Origin: Patescibacteria group bacterium
Lineage (GTDB): Bacteria; Patescibacteriota; Patescibacteriia; 2-12-FULL-60-25
Direction of reading: 5' to 3'
NCBI GenBank assembly: GCA_028688515.1
Contig: JAQTXZ010000001.1
Location: 124,001 to 188,000, forward strand
Length of the DNA: 64,000 nt
This document shows, in pieces, positions 28,388 through 35,231 of this stretch. Each line of letters starts with the position of its first letter. Position 1 is the first letter of the stretch. The position numbers and the translations under genes are program-made. The notes under the pieces were generated by a model. The model was given only the letters and a program-made list of their open reading frames with translations, was not told the DNA's origin and did no database searches.

Positions 28388-28397
28388 TTTACAGTTT

Positions 28398-28496
28398 TGT
28401 CATCCTCGGGCGAAGTCCTACGTAGACCCGGGGATCCAGTAGAATCAATTTGTTCGGATTTATCTCATTGGATCCCCGCATCCGCGAGGATGACAA
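28398..28496. repeat. Family A palindromic element, full copy
   Basis: TGTCATCCTCGGGCGAAGTC ... GGGGATCC, AT-rich centre, then TTGGATCCCCGCATCCGCG AGGATGACA. Nearly identical in its outer parts to the in-frame copy at 37862-37957. Confidence 0.9.
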
Positions 28497-28542
28497 AAAA
28501 GAAAATCGGAGTGACAAAATAGGGAATTTGAATACAACATGT

Positions 28543-29298
28543 ATGAAAGAACTCATCAATCGTTTATCTGAATACGGTTTGTCAGAAAAAGAATCGAGCA
28601 TCTACTTGGCGATGCTGGAGCTTGGTCCGGCGAGTGTGCAGGACATTGCGAATAAATCCGGCGTCAATCGCGCCACGACTTATGTGACTATGGAAGCGCT
28701 CAAACGCCACGGTTTGATGTCGACTTTTGAGAAAGGCAGAAAAACAATGTTCGTCGCCGAATCGCCCGAACATCTCAAAAGACTTTCGAGCGCAGAACTG
28801 CGAGCCGCCCAAGAAAAAGCTGATCGCCTGCAACAATCTCTTCCGCAGTTCATGGCGCTCTTCAACTCCGCATCCGAAACAAAACCAGTGGTGCGGTTTT
28901 TTGAAGGCGAGGAAGGTTTGATCACATGTCGCGAAATGTTGGGTCAATGCAAAGAAGAGGTTTTGAATTTTGTCGCATTGGATGAGAATAATCTGGCAAT
29001 GTCTAAAATAGATGAACGCGGCAGGTTATTTCTTACGTCGCGATCTCACGGACGCATCATCGTTGCACTCAAACCGGGGATTGAGATGACTAAACTCGAC
29101 AAACGAATGTGGCGAGTCAGAGAAGTGCTGTATGAAAGTTTTCCTTTTACCGGCGATATGTTGCTTAGCGAAGGAAAAATTTTCGTTTTTGTTATGAAAG
29201 AAAAACCGAGGGTGTTCCTTTTGGAGAGCAAGGAGGTATATGGAATGTTGAAGACAATGTTTGAATTGATCTGGCAGGAAGCCGAACCAATGGAATAA
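28543..29298 (+). CDS. TrmB-like transcriptional regulator
   Basis: A 251-residue regulator with an N-terminal winged HTH of the TrmB family (INRLSEYGLSEKESSIYLAM, GPASVQDIANKSGVNRATTY, EALKRHGLMS) followed by a coiled coil and a C-terminal effector-like domain (FFEGEEGLITCREML). TrmB regulators are mainly known for sugar-responsive control, which would fit the glycan genes nearby, but the ligand is unknown. ATG 28543 is preferred; the longer frame would translate the upstream family A repeat. Next, on the other strand, comes a terminator. Confidence 0.85.
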   Translation: MKELINRLSEYGLSEKESSIYLAMLELGPASVQDIANKSGVNRATTYVTMEALKRHGLMSTFEKGRKTMFVAESPEHLKRLSSAELRAAQEKADRLQQSLPQFMALFNSASETKPVVRFFEGEEGLITCREMLGQCKEEVLNFVALDENNLAMSKIDERGRLFLTSRSHGRIIVALKPGIEMTKLDKRMWRVREVLYESFPFTGDMLLSEGKIFVFVMKEKPRVFLLESKEVYGMLKTMFELIWQEAEPME

Positions 29299-29333
29299 AA
29301 AAAAGCGCCACGACACCTTTCGGTTCATGGCGA
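29296..29333 (-). terminator. Terminator of the small membrane gene/RNA transcript
   Basis: On the minus strand CGCCATGAACC pairs with GGTGTCGTGGCG around CGAAA, followed by CTTTTTTTT. It abuts the stop of the convergent TrmB-like gene. Confidence 0.75.
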
Positions 29334-29395
29334 GAGCGTCTGGGGTCCCTAGTGCGAGAACGCAGTTAGGCCATAACGCGAGGCGGCAGTCGGAG

Positions 29396-29620
29396 CTAAG
29401 CTCCGCAGCCGCAATTTGCAACCGGACGGATGCCCCATCGTTGGGACAGGGGATTTGCCGAGATTTCAGCTGCAAAGACGACGATGATGCGCACGAGGCC
29501 GGTGACGGCTTCGATGACAAATGTCGGCAAAGCCGGCACGAACTTGTCGCATACGCAACGTACTTCCGTCGTCAGAGCGGCGATGATTCCCAGCAAAAGC
29601 ATGAGAATCGCGGTCAACAT
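29396..29620 (-). CDS. Small GC-rich membrane protein
   Basis: A 74-residue protein with two hydrophobic stretches (MLTAILMLLLGIIAAL, about 1-16; FVIEAVTGLVRIIVVFAAEI, about 33-53) and four Cys (RCVC near 22-24, CGC at the end). AAGGAG stands six bases before the ATG. It is the only gene on a predicted minus-strand transcript that starts at about 29782, includes a structured leader, and ends at the 29296-29333 terminator. The family is not recognised. The Cys content and GC-rich style fit the adjacent Cys-rich gene cluster. Confidence 0.6.
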   Translation of the reverse strand: MLTAILMLLLGIIAALTTEVRCVCDKFVPALPTFVIEAVTGLVRIIVVFAAEISANPLSQRWGIRPVANCGCGA

Positions 29621-29649
29621 GGGGTCTCCTTGATTTGATGGAAAGGGCG

Positions 29650-29782
29650 GTGGAAGGGTTGATTAGCCACTACCTTGTGAGCCGACCCACTTGGTTATCG
29701 GCTGTCCGGCAATTTCACGCGGGTTTCGCTGTTTAGGCTTCAGGATAACCGCATTGTCGGAGGACTCTGGCTCACGCTGGTC
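29650..29782 (-). ncRNA. Candidate pseudoknotted structured RNA or leader
   Basis: An extended -10, TGATATATT (29797-29789), predicts a transcript starting near G29782. Complementary segments: P1 29775-29769 GTGAGCC with 29683-29677 GGCTCAC; P2 29760-29753 CCGACAAT with 29713-29706 ATTGCCGG (one G-U); P3 29750-29744 GGTTATC with 29699-29693 GATAACC. P2 and P3 interleave, making a pseudoknot enclosed by P1, with a small GCG/CGC hairpin inside and an unpaired 3' tail AAGGTAGTGGCTAATCAACC. This is too orderly for chance. It may be a riboswitch-like leader of the 74-residue gene or a free RNA. I cannot name it; the raiA-motif RNA class is one I would test first. Confidence 0.55.
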
Positions 29783-29838
29783 TTTTTTAATATATCACTA
29801 ATATCGATTTTTTGGCTGTGGATAAGCTAAAAAACGTA

Positions 29839-29906
29839 CATCACGTACATAGCGTACATCGCGTACATTGCGTGTCGGGAACGCTATGCACGTTATGTAC
29901 GTGATG
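29839..29906. repeat. Large imperfect palindrome, 'acgtacat' family
   Basis: Two 25-base arms (29839-29863 and 29882-29906) match at 22 positions across an 18-base loop, built of CGTACAT units. It lies between the RNA transcript and the promoter at 29933; related units occur at 4074, 13325, 23843 and 57176. Confidence 0.8.
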
Positions 29907-29932
29907 AACGCCAGGTACGTTTGGCCCGGGGA

Positions 29933-30100: not shown

Positions 30101-30868
30101 ATGAAGAAGAATTGGTTGGAGATGTCTCTGGCTGCAGTGCTCGTGTTTGTGGTCGGCGCAGTGATCTACGTGTTCCGCGGCGATTGGTCGTCGCGCGATC
30201 ATGAAATCAACCTCGCGGCGTCGGCAAGGGTTCGCGCAGTTAGCAGTGGTCTGCGCAAGACCGGGAACTACTGTGATGACCCATCGCAGCGCGTGTGCCG
30301 AATGGGAGAAGAAAACAGTTGCGCCTGCATGGGACTTGGTCTTGTGGGTATTCAGAATTGCGCCAAAGGCTGCGCCAGCTGGACAGTATGCGAGTGTCCC
30401 ACGGAGCAGCAGATCGTCGACGGCATCAAACGGGACGCGGCTTCAAGCTGCGCTTCGAATAGCCTGGACGGCAAGTTCGCAGTGGTTCTCCAGATCGTCG
30501 AGTCGCCACCGAAAGGTGTCTTACTCAGCGCTTTCGGAAAAAAGGACATGCAGCCGTATGGTCTTCTTGGCCAATCCAAGGCAGGCGAAAGCTCTCTCGT
30601 CCTACCACTAGCGTCTATCGGGGAGATTGTGATGTTTAGCATCAACCCGGGTTTGGCACCTTTGGATGACAAGGACTTCGACGCTTGGACACCGCTCTGT
30701 TTTCCCATGGATTGCCGTGTCTCTGTCTATGCCTGCAAAGGTAAGTCTTGGGTCAGTGCAATCGATAGCAACCGCGTCGTGCAGAACGATTCGGAAGAAG
30801 CCTCGAAGTGCCGCACCCAAAGCGGTCCTTGGAATATTACCGAGGTCTGGTGTCTGTTCGACAAGTGA
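30101..30868 (+). CDS. Exported Cys-rich protein, compact member
   Basis: A 255-residue protein with an N-terminal membrane/signal helix (about 7-27, EMSLAAVLVFVVGAVIYVF), one Cys-rich module (about 57-99, with NSCACMGLG, GIQNCAKGCASWTVCECP) and a C-terminal domain (about 120-255). The module recurs three times in the next gene and four times in 33387-35231. The C-terminal domain also matches the end of the 33387 protein: SINPGLAP...FDAWTPLCFPMDCRVSVY and TQSGPWNITEVWC align with its FNPGWAL...CPSEGCSTGLTVHAC and TQSGPYGNTEIV. GGGAGGT lies five bases before ATG 30101; the longer upstream frame ignores this. First gene of a two-gene operon. Extracellular role likely, function unknown. Confidence 0.75.
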   Translation: MKKNWLEMSLAAVLVFVVGAVIYVFRGDWSSRDHEINLAASARVRAVSSGLRKTGNYCDDPSQRVCRMGEENSCACMGLGLVGIQNCAKGCASWTVCECPTEQQIVDGIKRDAASSCASNSLDGKFAVVLQIVESPPKGVLLSAFGKKDMQPYGLLGQSKAGESSLVLPLASIGEIVMFSINPGLAPLDDKDFDAWTPLCFPMDCRVSVYACKGKSWVSAIDSNRVVQNDSEEASKCRTQSGPWNITEVWCLFDK

Positions 30869-30917
30869 ACCAAGCTCGCGCCAAGCGCGGCACAATGATT
30901 TCGGAAGGAAGAAGATC

Positions 30918-32954
30918 ATGAAGACGAACAAGAGTTTCTGGATGTTTGCGATTGCGTTGGGCGTCACGCTGGTCGGCTGCACGGGTGCCAAGAAGTTTGG
31001 CACGCGTGGACTCTGTACTCCGGGTGATACTGGCGACGAGATCGCGTGCAAGGACGGCAGTCAGGGGTTCCTGCTCTGCAACAAGGACGGCGACGCTTTC
31101 AACGGCGGCGACACGTGCAAGGAGGGTCAGCAGCCCGCGACGGGTTGCGGATCCAAGGACGCGGAGTGCGCCCCGGGCGAGCAGGTCTCGTGCGGCTGCA
31201 ACGACGGACGCGAAGGCGCCCAGAAGTGCAACACAGCGTGCGACGGCTTCGACGTCTGTATCTGCAGCGGACCCCTTCCAGGGACTGGCGGACAAGGCGG
31301 ATCGGGCGGACCAAGCGGACAGGGCGGAGCAATCGGCGGCTCGGGCGGCAGCACCAACACGGGTGGAACGACGCAGACCGGCGGTAACGCTGGCAGCGGC
31401 GGTTCAACGGGCGGCAGCGGTGGGACGACGTCCACCGGCGGCTCGGGCGGTTCGTCTGGTGGAACGGGCGGAACGTCCGGCACTGGCGGAGGCTCGCAGG
31501 TCTGTACGCCGCAGCAGGAGTACTACGACTGTGGCGGCGAGTGCGGGAGCCTTGGCGGTTCCCGGTGGTGTCGCGCTGACGGACTGTCCTACGGTCCGTG
31601 CGTCTGCAATACCGCAACCGGCGGCGCAGGCGGAACGTCCGGCACTGGTGGTTCGGGCGGTTCTACGGGCGGCGCAGGTGGCAACACCGGCGGCACCGGA
31701 GGATCGACCGGCGGCAGTGGTGGCTCTACGAGCTACTGCGGCACGGCGAGCGACGCCTGTCTCAATGTGGTTCAGCAGCCCTGCTATTGCCAGGTCGATG
31801 GCTCGTCCATCTCCGGCACGCAGAACTGCAAGCCGGATTGCTCAGGCTGGGAAGCTTGCTACTGCAACAGTGGTGCAGGCGGTTCCGGCGGTAGCGGTGG
31901 AACGGGCGGCAGCGGTGGCTCTGGCGGGACGGGTGGAACGGGTGGAAGCGGCGGAGTGAGCGGGACGGCTGTGGATGTCACGTGCGAAATCACGCACGCA
32001 GACTATACGGCGTTCAAGTTCGACTTCGCCAACTTCGTCATGTCGTCCGTGCAGCATGTCTACAGCGTCTTCGTCTCGGACGAGGGCGTGGACGACGGGC
32101 ATGGTGGTGCGACCTACGCAACCGCAACCCATCTCAAGTGGGGCGACGCTCTCAACTTGCAGCAGCTCGGGCGATCCGTGAAGTTTGCCTTCCGGACGAC
32201 CCTGGGCAGTCGCATTACGTTGAACGCCGTGCGGGACCCTATCGGCAACGATCTCTCGAGCGGCGACTACTGGCGCGAGCCAGCCGTTGACAAGGGTGTG
32301 GTCAAGATGAAGGTCGATTGTTTGCTCAAGTTCGACGGCAGCGACACCATGAACAACATCATGTGGCCTCACGCCGAACAGAACGAGCAGCATACCGGCT
32401 GGAACCTCGCCCTCACCGTGCAGACGGCCTGGACTACGACGAGCGACCAGGATGGTGACGGTTCGTCGCCTCCGCAGGACTGCGACGACCACAGTTTCTA
32501 CAAGGCGCCGGGCCTCGTGGAAATCATCCAGGACGGCGTCGACAACAACTGCTACGGCGGAGACGAGAAGTACCGCCGCGTGGTCATGGATGCGCCTTCC
32601 GGCATCATGAACTACGGCGGCCTGATGAAGTACTGGGATTTCAACCAGACTTCTCCGCACGGCGTCAAGATGATCTACGACGGTCACTGGGCATCGGCCT
32701 ACGTGCCGGTCAGCCTGCTGCCGGTCGACACGATGTCCGGGTACAGCACTAGCCAGCCCGGCGGACTCGTCGAGTACAACGGTTCCGGTGACAACTGCTA
32801 CAATGGGTTGTGCTGGAACATGTCGGATTGGGGCGGCTCGTGCCACCCGGTTTATCCGGTGTGGTCCGAGTCGTACGACTCCACGCATATCAGCTCGACG
32901 ACGGCGCGGAACGTGAACAACCAGTGCAGGTCGTTCTTCCCCGCGACGCTCTGA
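30918..32954 (+). CDS. Cys-rich, Gly/Thr/Ser-repeat lipoprotein with MopE-like motif
   Basis: A 679-residue lipoprotein (VTLVGC, Cys21). It has three Cys-rich modules (about 77-116, 195-232, 273-315) separated by long GGTGGS/GGSGG linkers (for example 117-190, 235-270, 315-345), then a globular C-terminal part (345-679). At about 510-550, DQDGDGSSPPQDCDD followed by DGVDNNCYGGDE is the Asp-rich putative metal-binding motif typical of MopE-like and myxobacterial surface proteins. Even numbers of Cys suggest disulphides outside the cell. GGAAGGA precedes ATG 30918, 49 bases after the previous gene. GC-rich third positions differ strongly from the flanking CPR genes, suggesting transfer from a GC-rich donor, perhaps of deltaproteobacterial/myxobacterial type. 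Confidence 0.82.
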   Translation: MKTNKSFWMFAIALGVTLVGCTGAKKFGTRGLCTPGDTGDEIACKDGSQGFLLCNKDGDAFNGGDTCKEGQQPATGCGSKDAECAPGEQVSCGCNDGREGAQKCNTACDGFDVCICSGPLPGTGGQGGSGGPSGQGGAIGGSGGSTNTGGTTQTGGNAGSGGSTGGSGGTTSTGGSGGSSGGTGGTSGTGGGSQVCTPQQEYYDCGGECGSLGGSRWCRADGLSYGPCVCNTATGGAGGTSGTGGSGGSTGGAGGNTGGTGGSTGGSGGSTSYCGTASDACLNVVQQPCYCQVDGSSISGTQNCKPDCSGWEACYCNSGAGGSGGSGGTGGSGGSGGTGGTGGSGGVSGTAVDVTCEITHADYTAFKFDFANFVMSSVQHVYSVFVSDEGVDDGHGGATYATATHLKWGDALNLQQLGRSVKFAFRTTLGSRITLNAVRDPIGNDLSSGDYWREPAVDKGVVKMKVDCLLKFDGSDTMNNIMWPHAEQNEQHTGWNLALTVQTAWTTTSDQDGDGSSPPQDCDDHSFYKAPGLVEIIQDGVDNNCYGGDEKYRRVVMDAPSGIMNYGGLMKYWDFNQTSPHGVKMIYDGHWASAYVPVSLLPVDTMSGYSTSQPGGLVEYNGSGDNCYNGLCWNMSDWGGSCHPVYPVWSESYDSTHISSTTARNVNNQCRSFFPATL

Positions 32955-33041
32955 CGTCGCACATCAAAGCCGAATGCGCCGCACAGAGTGTTAACGGCGC
33001 GCCAGGCTTGAACTCTTAACTACAAACCAGGAGGTTATCTC

Positions 33042-33085
33042 GAGGCGGCTACGCAAACACGCGTGCCGCCTCTTAAATTTGTTTT
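33042..33085 (+). terminator. Strong terminator of the Cys-rich operon
   Basis: GAGGCGGC and ACGC pair with GCGT and GCCGCCTC (12 base pairs, one bulge) around AAACAC, followed by TTAAATTTGTTTT. Confidence 0.75.
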
Positions 33086-33148
33086 AGCATTTCTAAAAAA
33101 TTTAAAGACCTTGCAAAACATGAAATGAGCAATCTTGTATCTCGTAGG

Positions 33149-33229
33149 GGTTCGGGGACAAAAATTTTGAGCGGCTCACATGAAATGAGTTGCCACATAG
33201 AAAGAAGCGAGTTTTTTGTCCCCGAAACC
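33149..33229. repeat. Long inverted repeat in the convergent gap
   Basis: GGTTCGGGGACAAAAA (33149-33164) pairs with TTTTTTGTCCCCGAAACC (33212-33229) around a 47-base loop. Direct repeats CATGAAATGAG stand at 33119 and 33179, one outside and one inside the loop. The 32955-33386 gap otherwise holds only the two terminators and GGCCGCC/GGCGGCC at 33346-33366. Confidence 0.75.
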
Positions 33230-33295
33230 TTTTGGTTACTTGTTCAGTGATGAAAAGTAACGTAAATAGATTTTCAAATTGAAAGGTTTTTAAAT

Positions 33296-33336
33296 AAAAA
33301 AAGAGGCCCGCTGCGCGAGGATGCGCAAGCGAGCCT
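33296..33336 (-). terminator. Terminator of the leftward Cys-rich gene
   Basis: On the minus strand GGCTCGCTTGCGC pairs with GCGCAGCGGGCC (small mismatches) and is followed by TCTTTTTTT. Confidence 0.75.
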
Positions 33337-33386
33337 AGTAGCTCGTGGCCGCCGTGATTGGCGGCCTTGAGGTGAGCGAGCGTCGT

Positions 33387-35231
33387 CTATGGGTAGTTGA
33401 CGACGATCTCGGTGTTTCCGTACGGACCGCTCTGCGTGGTCACGCTGAGCGTGTTCGGGTCGTTGTCCGGGTTGGAGTCGACCTTCGTGATCCCGTTGAG
33501 CGAACCCAGCCACGTCGTGCCGTTGCAGGCGTGGACGGTGAGGCCGGTTGAGCACCCTTCAGAGGGACACTCGGTGTTCCACGTGGCGGTGTCCGTATTG
33601 TTGGACAGCGCCCACCCGGGGTTGAACGCGAGCTGCAGGCTGGAGGCCGGCTCGGGCCGCGTAATGACCAAGTGCTGGGGAGTGGACGGAGAGGCCTGAT
33701 CCCAGATGCTGTAGTCGCCGTTGTTCACCTTGCCGTACACGCTCAGCGCCTTGCCCGGGTTGGGGGCGGCGTCCGTCGTGTCGATGATGAGCGTCGCAGT
33801 GTTGGCGGGCGCAGTGAGCGCGCTGCAGACCGTGACGCCCAGCGCTTGCAACTCAGTGACCGCAGCGTCGCCGGCGTCACCGAAGTTGCAAGTCGGATCC
33901 CACGGTACGCTGGCAATGACCATAACGCCCTCACGCGTGTCGGTTTTCTTCTCGCATGCGAAGTCCATGTTGAGGCTGGGCTCGTGGCACACCTGGCAGT
34001 TCGCATATCCTTCGAGGCAAGCGCCGCCCGGGTTGCAGATGAGAGGCGCCGCAGCGTCGACCGGGACACACGGCGTCCAGCCGGTGCAGTCCGCGTTGCA
34101 GGACTGCGTGCCAGACACTCCGCCGGATGCGGTGCAAGCCACGTTGACCTGGTCTGTCGTGCAGGCACGCTTGCTGGGATCTTGGCAGATGGGGACCGCG
34201 GCATCGGCGCCGGCGTCTCCGCCACCCGTGCCCGCCGTTCCTCCGGTGCCTGCATCGGCACACTCGCAAGACGTCCAGCCAGAGCAGTCCTCGTTGCAGG
34301 ATTGTGCGCCGGAGTTGCTGTTCGTGTCGCCCGGGCAGTAGCACGTCTGCGTCTGGTTGGTGGTGCAGGCTCGCGCGTTGGCGTCGAGACAGTAGCTGAC
34401 CGGGCCGGCGTCTCCGCCGCCCGTTCCACCCGTCGCACCGCCAGTGCCGCCCGTGCCGCCGACACCCGCATCCGGGCAGTCGGGGTTCGTCCAGCCGCTG
34501 CAGTCTTCGAGGCAGGTCTGAACGACGGTCTGGCCGCCGCCGCACTGCTTGAGCTGCGTCTGGTTGGTGGTGCAGGCCCGTGCACTCGCATCGAGACAGT
34601 AGCTGACCGGTCCGGCGTCTCCGCCGCCCGTGCCTGCCGCACCAGCGGTGCCGCCCGTGCCAGCCGGGATGCATCCGGCGCAGGTAGTCCAGCCGTCACA
34701 CAGCTCGTTGCACGTCTGCGCTCCGCTCACCATCTCGGTGGAGCAATCGCAGGACTGCGTCTGGTTGGTGGTGCACGCGCGCTGTGCAGCGTTCAGGCAG
34801 AGATTCTGCCCGGCACCGCCCGTTCCGCCCGTCGCGCCGCCCGTGCCTCCGGAGCCCGCGGTTCCACCGCTTCCCGCCGTTCCGCCCGTTCCGCCGACAC
34901 CCGCATCGACTCGAGGGTCCTGGCAGAGCGTGTATGGAAAGGTCGGATCGCTGTAAAGCAGGTTGAACATGTCGTTGGTCACGATTCGACCATCGAGGCA
35001 GCGTCCTTGTCCTTGGTCGGTTTGCACGAACGCGCCGTCGGGCTGCCCCGGGTCGGGGCATGTGCACTCCGTGCCGATGGTGACCGCACTCTCCTTCTTG
35101 CTCGTCTGCTCGACACCGTTGAGGTTGCCGCAGCTGGTCGTCGCCGTGGTCATGCTGACCGCCGCGACCAATGCGCCAACTCCGGTGAGGACGCCTGACA
35201 TCATCACGAAATTCTTCTTGATCGTTCTCAT
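33387..35231 (-). CDS. Cys-rich, Gly/Thr-repeat exported protein, four modules
   Basis: A 614-residue exported protein. The signal segment (about 9-30) ends TATTSC (Cys34), a weak lipobox. GGTGGTAGSGG linkers alternate with four Cys-rich modules at about 145-187, 212-252, 281-324 and 349-388; three carry RACTTNQTQ and one RACTTDQVN, followed by GxQxC-x3-C-x-GW-x2-C. The C-terminal domain (about 400-614) is homologous by eye to the end of the 30101 protein. AGGAGG stands 8 bases before the ATG. It converges on the 30101-32954 operon and has its own terminator. Similar designs occur in myxobacteria; here a surface or extracellular role is inferred. Confidence 0.8.
   Translation of the reverse strand: MRTIKKNFVMMSGVLTGVGALVAAVSMTTATTSCGNLNGVEQTSKKESAVTIGTECTCPDPGQPDGAFVQTDQGQGRCLDGRIVTNDMFNLLYSDPTFPYTLCQDPRVDAGVGGTGGTAGSGGTAGSGGTGGATGGTGGAGQNLCLNAAQRACTTNQTQSCDCSTEMVSGAQTCNELCDGWTTCAGCIPAGTGGTAGAAGTGGGDAGPVSYCLDASARACTTNQTQLKQCGGGQTVVQTCLEDCSGWTNPDCPDAGVGGTGGTGGATGGTGGGDAGPVSYCLDANARACTTNQTQTCYCPGDTNSNSGAQSCNEDCSGWTSCECADAGTGGTAGTGGGDAGADAAVPICQDPSKRACTTDQVNVACTASGGVSGTQSCNADCTGWTPCVPVDAAAPLICNPGGACLEGYANCQVCHEPSLNMDFACEKKTDTREGVMVIASVPWDPTCNFGDAGDAAVTELQALGVTVCSALTAPANTATLIIDTTDAAPNPGKALSVYGKVNNGDYSIWDQASPSTPQHLVITRPEPASSLQLAFNPGWALSNNTDTATWNTECPSEGCSTGLTVHACNGTTWLGSLNGITKVDSNPDNDPNTLSVTTQSGPYGNTEIVVNYP

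Follow-up and report, generated by a model that had tools for sequence, protein, structure and literature searches.

A conserved 13-residue peptide ending and its neighbouring hairpin in CPR bacteria and marine phages: a candidate translational regulatory element

Introduction

Which part of a small transcription unit in a Patescibacteria group bacterium is conserved, its RNA or its peptide? The unit lies on the minus strand of a 64,000-nt stretch of contig JAQTXZ010000001.1 (assembly GCA_028688515.1, positions 124,001 to 188,000), hereafter called the window. The initial annotation described positions 29650-29782 as a pseudoknotted RNA, directly after an extended -10 and before a small membrane-protein gene, that might be a riboswitch, a large structured non-coding RNA such as the raiA motif, or something undescribed.

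Results

A compact unit on the minus strand

The window sequence reads, in a single order on the minus strand, as an extended -10, a leader, a small ORF led by a Shine-Dalgarno (SD) sequence, and a terminator hairpin followed by T8, so the compact unit of the initial annotation is present with all its parts. Read directly from the sequence, the extended -10 (TGaTATATT, 29797-29789) lies directly before the RNA and has no -35. The leader, 29621..29782, includes the proposed helices P1-P3 and is species-specific, its structure being unproven by folding, shuffles, covariance model and genus alignment. The ORF (29396..29620), identified by ORF calling and by protein and profile searches, has the SD AAGGAG and encodes 74 aa with a hydrophobic N-terminus and a conserved C-terminal end. 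This end, WGIRPVANCGCGA (29399..29437), is recognized by profile searches and occupies the 13 codons immediately 5' of the TAG. A hairpin, GCGGCTGCGGAGC-TTA-GCTCCGACTGCCGC (29383..29412; -20.7 kcal/mol, z -4.53), lies across the stop codon, a place where hairpins are enriched in the family. The intrinsic terminator (29297..29332) folds as a 10-bp stem with one bulge (-16.2 kcal/mol, z -2.98), then T8. A simple promoter/terminator scan, which needs a -35 and passes over the bulged stem, lists neither signal, and both therefore rest on direct reading and folding. It is credible that the whole is a stand-alone transcription unit, in which the leader probably only sets expression of the small ORF. 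Convergent with it, on the plus strand, is the conserved partner of the unit, a gene for a TrmB-family regulator (28543..29298; Pfam TrmB 1.7e-14).

The surroundings hold other features. A long imperfect inverted repeat of ACGTACAT/ATGTACGT units (29830-29922; -41.3 kcal/mol, z -5.87) separates divergent genes. Just before the TrmB gene, at about 28389-28530, two frames read HWIPASARMTKK and LDPRIREDDKK in what looks like a dispersed palindromic repeat. At 30666-35231, the neighbouring genes on both strands encode long Gly-Gly-Thr/Ser-rich, Cys-containing surface-type proteins.

The leader as a structured RNA

The three helices, two of them interleaved, do exist in the minus-strand sequence. 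P1 is GTGAGCC/GGCTCAC (29775-29769 and 29683-29677), P2 is TCCGACAAT/ATTGCCGGA (29761-29753 and 29713-29705), with 8 pairs and one A.C mismatch, and P3, interleaved with P2, is GGTTATC/GATAACC (29750-29744 and 29699-29693). Support for the pseudoknot that they would form does not go beyond chance. The nested minimum free energy fold of the leader has a z of -0.92, and 30 of 200 dinucleotide shuffles fold equally well. The best three-stem pseudoknot scores -42.5 against a shuffle mean of -36.7, with 17 of 300 shuffles matching it, and the optimal stem triple from this search has P1 alone in common with P1-P3.

Rfam 15 gave no match in the window at the gathering cut-off and nothing relevant at a permissive threshold, where the weak miRNA-type matches are spurious because they fall on the unrelated inverted repeat at 29830-29922. 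Among the 41 genomes of the window's taxonomic family, BLAST with the leader found the window itself and nothing in the other 40, and a covariance model built from P1 and P2 plus sequence recovered the window alone. The covariation search proposed for P1-P3 thus found zero homologues and nothing to compare. The leaders of four genus-mates, 243-361 nt long, have many predicted pairs and fold well; they cannot be aligned with the window leader, and so they allow no covariation test of P1-P3. Nor does the alignment bear out the 3' flank AAGGTAGTGGCTAATCAACC as a conserved single-stranded motif, a short AATCAACC-like stretch being present in two of these leaders. The leaders of genomes G034 and G031 differ by a large indel and one compensatory hairpin change (ACGAC/GTCGT to ACGGC/GCCGT). 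Going by such comparisons, structure may be present in the leaders of this genus but evolve rapidly.

The RNA as described therefore belongs to no known family: with no homologue and no Rfam 15 match, a new RNA class, the raiA motif and a known riboswitch are all unsupported. The raiA motif RNA (ModT) is likewise an intergenic pseudoknot-type RNA with its own promoter, but the window leader has no Rfam match to it, and the motif is known mainly from Bacillota and Actinomycetota (PMC11706538). For a riboswitch, Rfam returned no match, and the searches of the 40 other genomes gave no homologue of the RNA in which an aptamer could be conserved. No tmRNA lies in the window, that of the genome being at C4:616189. 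The helices themselves, the long and well-folding leaders of the genus-mates and the compensatory pair between G034 and G031 speak for P1-P3 as a new non-coding RNA class or riboswitch, with the ORF either incidental or its regulated gene. Such a reading is nevertheless very unlikely, given the lack of any match or homologue, a stability near chance, and a leader that cannot be aligned among species of one genus whereas conservation of the ORF end extends over a whole class.

The conserved element is the end of the small ORF

Protein searches found small-ORF relatives with a common C-terminal end in the window's taxonomic family, and profile searches with this end found about 27 units in 25 genomes, mostly from a few families of one class, with a single unit outside that class (G442). 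The pattern is [WYF]-x-[LIK]-R-P-[VIA]-A-[HNR]-C-x-x-G-x, usually with an immediate stop, and in a narrower form it is [WYF]-x-[LI]-R-P-[VI]-A-[HN]-C-x-x-G-[AGS]-stop. The Cys is invariant and the His/Asn near-invariant. Conservation is limited to the last 13 codons, and the preceding residues differ in length and sequence. The hydrophobic N-terminus that suggested a small membrane-protein gene is indeed found in the window ORF, but it belongs to this variable part and is missing from most members. The unit does hold something undescribed, yet what is both new and conserved is not the RNA but the terminal peptide of the small gene, together with the hairpin at its stop codon. No HMM in Pfam, NCBIfam or PHROGs matches the peptide, and the open-access literature gave no relevant paper with the motif, only one unrelated match. 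Named records that carry it come from Candidatus Uhrbacteria and other Patescibacteria.

Some genomes carry more than one copy. G034 and G031 (L203, L204) have the peptide ORF twice in tandem, upstream of the convergent TrmB gene; each copy has a promoter-like sequence to itself, and the second copies read YGKRPVANC. In G007 and G008 (L223-L226), two unlinked copies are present per genome, neither adjoining a TrmB gene; one of them lies right behind a tyrosine-recombinase-like ORF and a tRNA-3'-end-like stretch, which suggests a mobile element.

The same ending in phages

A search of IMG/VR with an exact degenerate pattern for WFLRPVA[NH]C returned three contigs, and a relaxed pattern returned 105; in all of these the motif lies close to the end of a short ORF. 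They represent at least 78 distinct phage elements and 54 distinct peptides. Traits outside the search pattern agree with the CPR peptides: counting from the Trp, the stop mostly comes right after codon 13, the residue before the motif is usually basic, and the last residue is small. With an HMM built from CPR sequences only, all 54 distinct phage peptides score 21.6-40.2 bits, against 12.9 for the best of 20,000 shuffled decoys. Across the 78 elements, synonymous codons are used freely at motif positions, including all six Arg codons and all four codons each for Pro, Val, Ala and Gly.

The usual phage site is between a DUF1360-like membrane gene and a prohead protease gene. A gene with the Cys-x-x-Cys motif of DUF1360-like proteins adjoins 84 of the 104 copies with enough flank, and a gp21-like prohead protease gene lies downstream of 91 of 98. 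The phage micro-ORF, of which MRPLTKIRWMIRPVANCCKGS with its hairpin is an example, has the same 13-residue end and the same stop distance as the CPR family, but it is mostly 17-35 aa long, lies within a late structural operon and has its hairpin 8 nt after codon 13. It is likewise undescribed. A tblastn search of 50,697 named-phage records gave no match, at a sensitivity that is low for 21 aa; five capsid regions of T4-like phages or cyanophages, located through their protease, lack the micropeptide, and a literature search on DUF1360 phage small proteins gave nothing relevant. That the 13-residue ending defines a new micro-peptide family common to CPR bacteria and marine phages is well supported.

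A hairpin accompanies the ORF end

In 73 of the 78 distinct phage elements, a G+C hairpin (core GCGGG...CCCGC) follows the motif, its GCGG core 8 nt past codon 13 in nearly all of them. This distance is identical whether a stop codon is present or the ORF reads through, in which case the hairpin is translated as RVAPA. The stem varies together with its partner strand (GCGGT/ACCGC, GCGAC/GTCGC). By general ribosome geometry, we infer that the hairpin would be near the mRNA entry of a ribosome with codon 13 in its P site. In the window's taxonomic family, the hairpin instead spans the stop: 50% of units score at least 14, compared with 9% of other ORF ends (p about 9e-5), and in G028 the stop is lost while an 8-bp hairpin is kept. 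In other lineages it is weak or missing: several members of family f9 and others have no stop hairpin, and the mean z over all units is only -0.63. The position of the hairpin thus differs, after codon 13 in phages and around the stop in CPR bacteria.

Programmed bypassing in T4 gene 60 uses a nascent peptide, a Gly codon, a stop and a hairpin. The peptide, invariant Gly codon, stop and hairpin found here resemble these parts, and recoding by frameshift, readthrough or bypass could in principle fuse the peptide to a downstream frame. A gene 60-type bypass has a fixed landing site and one fused product, whereas here the frame of the downstream start relative to the micro-ORF differs from phage to phage. 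The downstream phage gene also has its own SD and ATG, and CPR units have no conserved downstream frame. We regard recoding as most improbable.

Neighbours of the CPR units

The arrangement of the window, with a convergent TrmB-family regulator gene, recurs with a homologous regulator in 18 of 26 other loci with flanks, and 38 of the 41 genomes of the window's family have TrmB homologues. After the peptide ORF of CPR units come the terminator and then a convergent gene, and no same-strand gene follows. Several genomes that lack a clear motif have similar ORF ends opposite the best-scoring TrmB gene (G032 RWELQPVRHCLAGML, G035 LQPHMHCPACG, G039 WMWPPQANCGAGA). Their position is only suggestive of membership, as taken alone they score within decoy range with the CPR-only HMM. 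A literature search on TrmB in Patescibacteria gave nothing relevant.

These neighbours raise the possibility, which we hold at clearly less than even, that the peptide, once released, acts by binding a protein, as a whole or through its C-terminal 13 residues; the partner might be the TrmB-like regulator or a membrane protein in CPR bacteria and the DUF1360-like neighbour in phages. The recurrent TrmB and DUF1360-like genes, the diverged candidates opposite TrmB and the invariant Cys and near-invariant His/Asn all agree with a trans-acting peptide. However, phages and CPR bacteria share no evident partner, as TrmB genes were absent beside the phage copies examined and casual inspection of the CPR loci revealed no DUF1360 gene. 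The decoy-range scores weaken the diverged candidates, and the fixed hairpin spacing, kept even in read-through ORFs, is hard to explain by a trans-acting product.

Upstream of the window's -10, by 31 nt, is a perfect 9-mer resembling a DnaA box, TTATCCACA (29817..29825, minus strand). Similar TTATC[AC]ACA sequences lie 30-40 nt before the -10 in two genus-mates and several f9 genomes, giving 6 matches against 0.3 expected from local background; those of G034 and G031 come on top of the 6, since longer leaders place them outside the counted stretch. The G000 genome has 26 scattered TTATCCACA sites, strongly enriched over 1 for a reversed control pattern. Because these sites are mostly not promoter-like, the box is not a general promoter element, and its link to the peptide unit looks specific. 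Separately, f9 units L028, L031, L033, L032 and L035 have a boxA-like TGTTCTTT near the predicted transcription start, comparable to antiterminated rRNA leaders.

Discussion

Peptide-level conservation, the hairpin, its fixed spacing in phages and the conserved neighbours are the observations on which we base our preferred, though tentative, reading of the unit as an arrest-type nascent-chain regulatory micro-ORF coupled to a hairpin. Its functional core would be the short ORF with the conserved peptide end and the hairpin at or just after that end. With the last 13 residues in the exit tunnel, the nascent chain may slow or arrest translation at the ORF end, where the ribosome would melt or hold back the adjacent hairpin. 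The altered state of the hairpin could then change the fate of the downstream RNA, which in phages is the next gene and in CPR bacteria the 3' region opposite the TrmB gene. A signal acting in cis through the nascent chain would explain why conservation is limited to a tunnel length, why synonymous change is free and why the spacing of the hairpin is independent of the stop. The family also shows the general mark of arrest peptides, a conserved C-terminal motif behind a variable N-terminus.

The weak point of the arrest reading is the downstream gene. Phages have a co-directional one, the prohead protease gene, but CPR units lack the same-strand gene that is the usual target of an arrest peptide. 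The differing hairpin positions and the several units without a stop hairpin also count against it. A trans-acting peptide partnered with TrmB explains the synteny better and the hairpin worse than arrest in cis, and is nearly as likely.

Known arrest peptides offer partial parallels. Like the new family, the tryptophanase leader peptide TnaC is encoded by a short ORF with a conserved C-terminal end and a regulatory RNA element right after the stop, and its essential Trp lies 13 residues (inclusive) before the stop, the Trp-to-stop distance of the new family. Unlike the new family, TnaC has a tna-like operon downstream and a known rut site where the hairpin would be. No HMM match or sequence similarity relates the two, and the parallel is one of analogy, not membership. 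Monitoring arrest peptides of the SecM/MifM/RAPP type also combine a variable N-terminus with a conserved C-terminal motif. The hydrophobic N-terminus in the window's genus and the hairpin at the ORF end are further likenesses, and GIR..P of the new family recalls GIRAGP of SecM. However, the motif contains no RAPP/RAGP and many members have no membrane segment. Substrates that monitor Sec/YidC are located upstream of secA, secDF or yidC (PMC10987492), whereas the new family is not, and at the window locus the ORF is followed by the terminator and the convergent TrmB gene.

More broadly, the 13-residue nascent-chain signal and the mRNA hairpin may, though we put this below an even chance, constitute a new translational element, used in the capsid operons of T4-like marine phages and in stand-alone, TrmB-paired CPR units, some lineages with a DnaA box. 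This would point to one shared sensor based on the ribosome or to a regulatory module of phage origin. Short ORFs escape annotation, and this peptide, conserved across a CPR class and many phages, has apparently gone unnamed so far. Action in trans would make it one half of a peptide-regulator pair, a rare thing in bacteria about whose regulation hardly anything is known. Stalling of ribosomes by its ending would instead make it a new arrest sequence, at work in both phage late operons and CPR bacteria.
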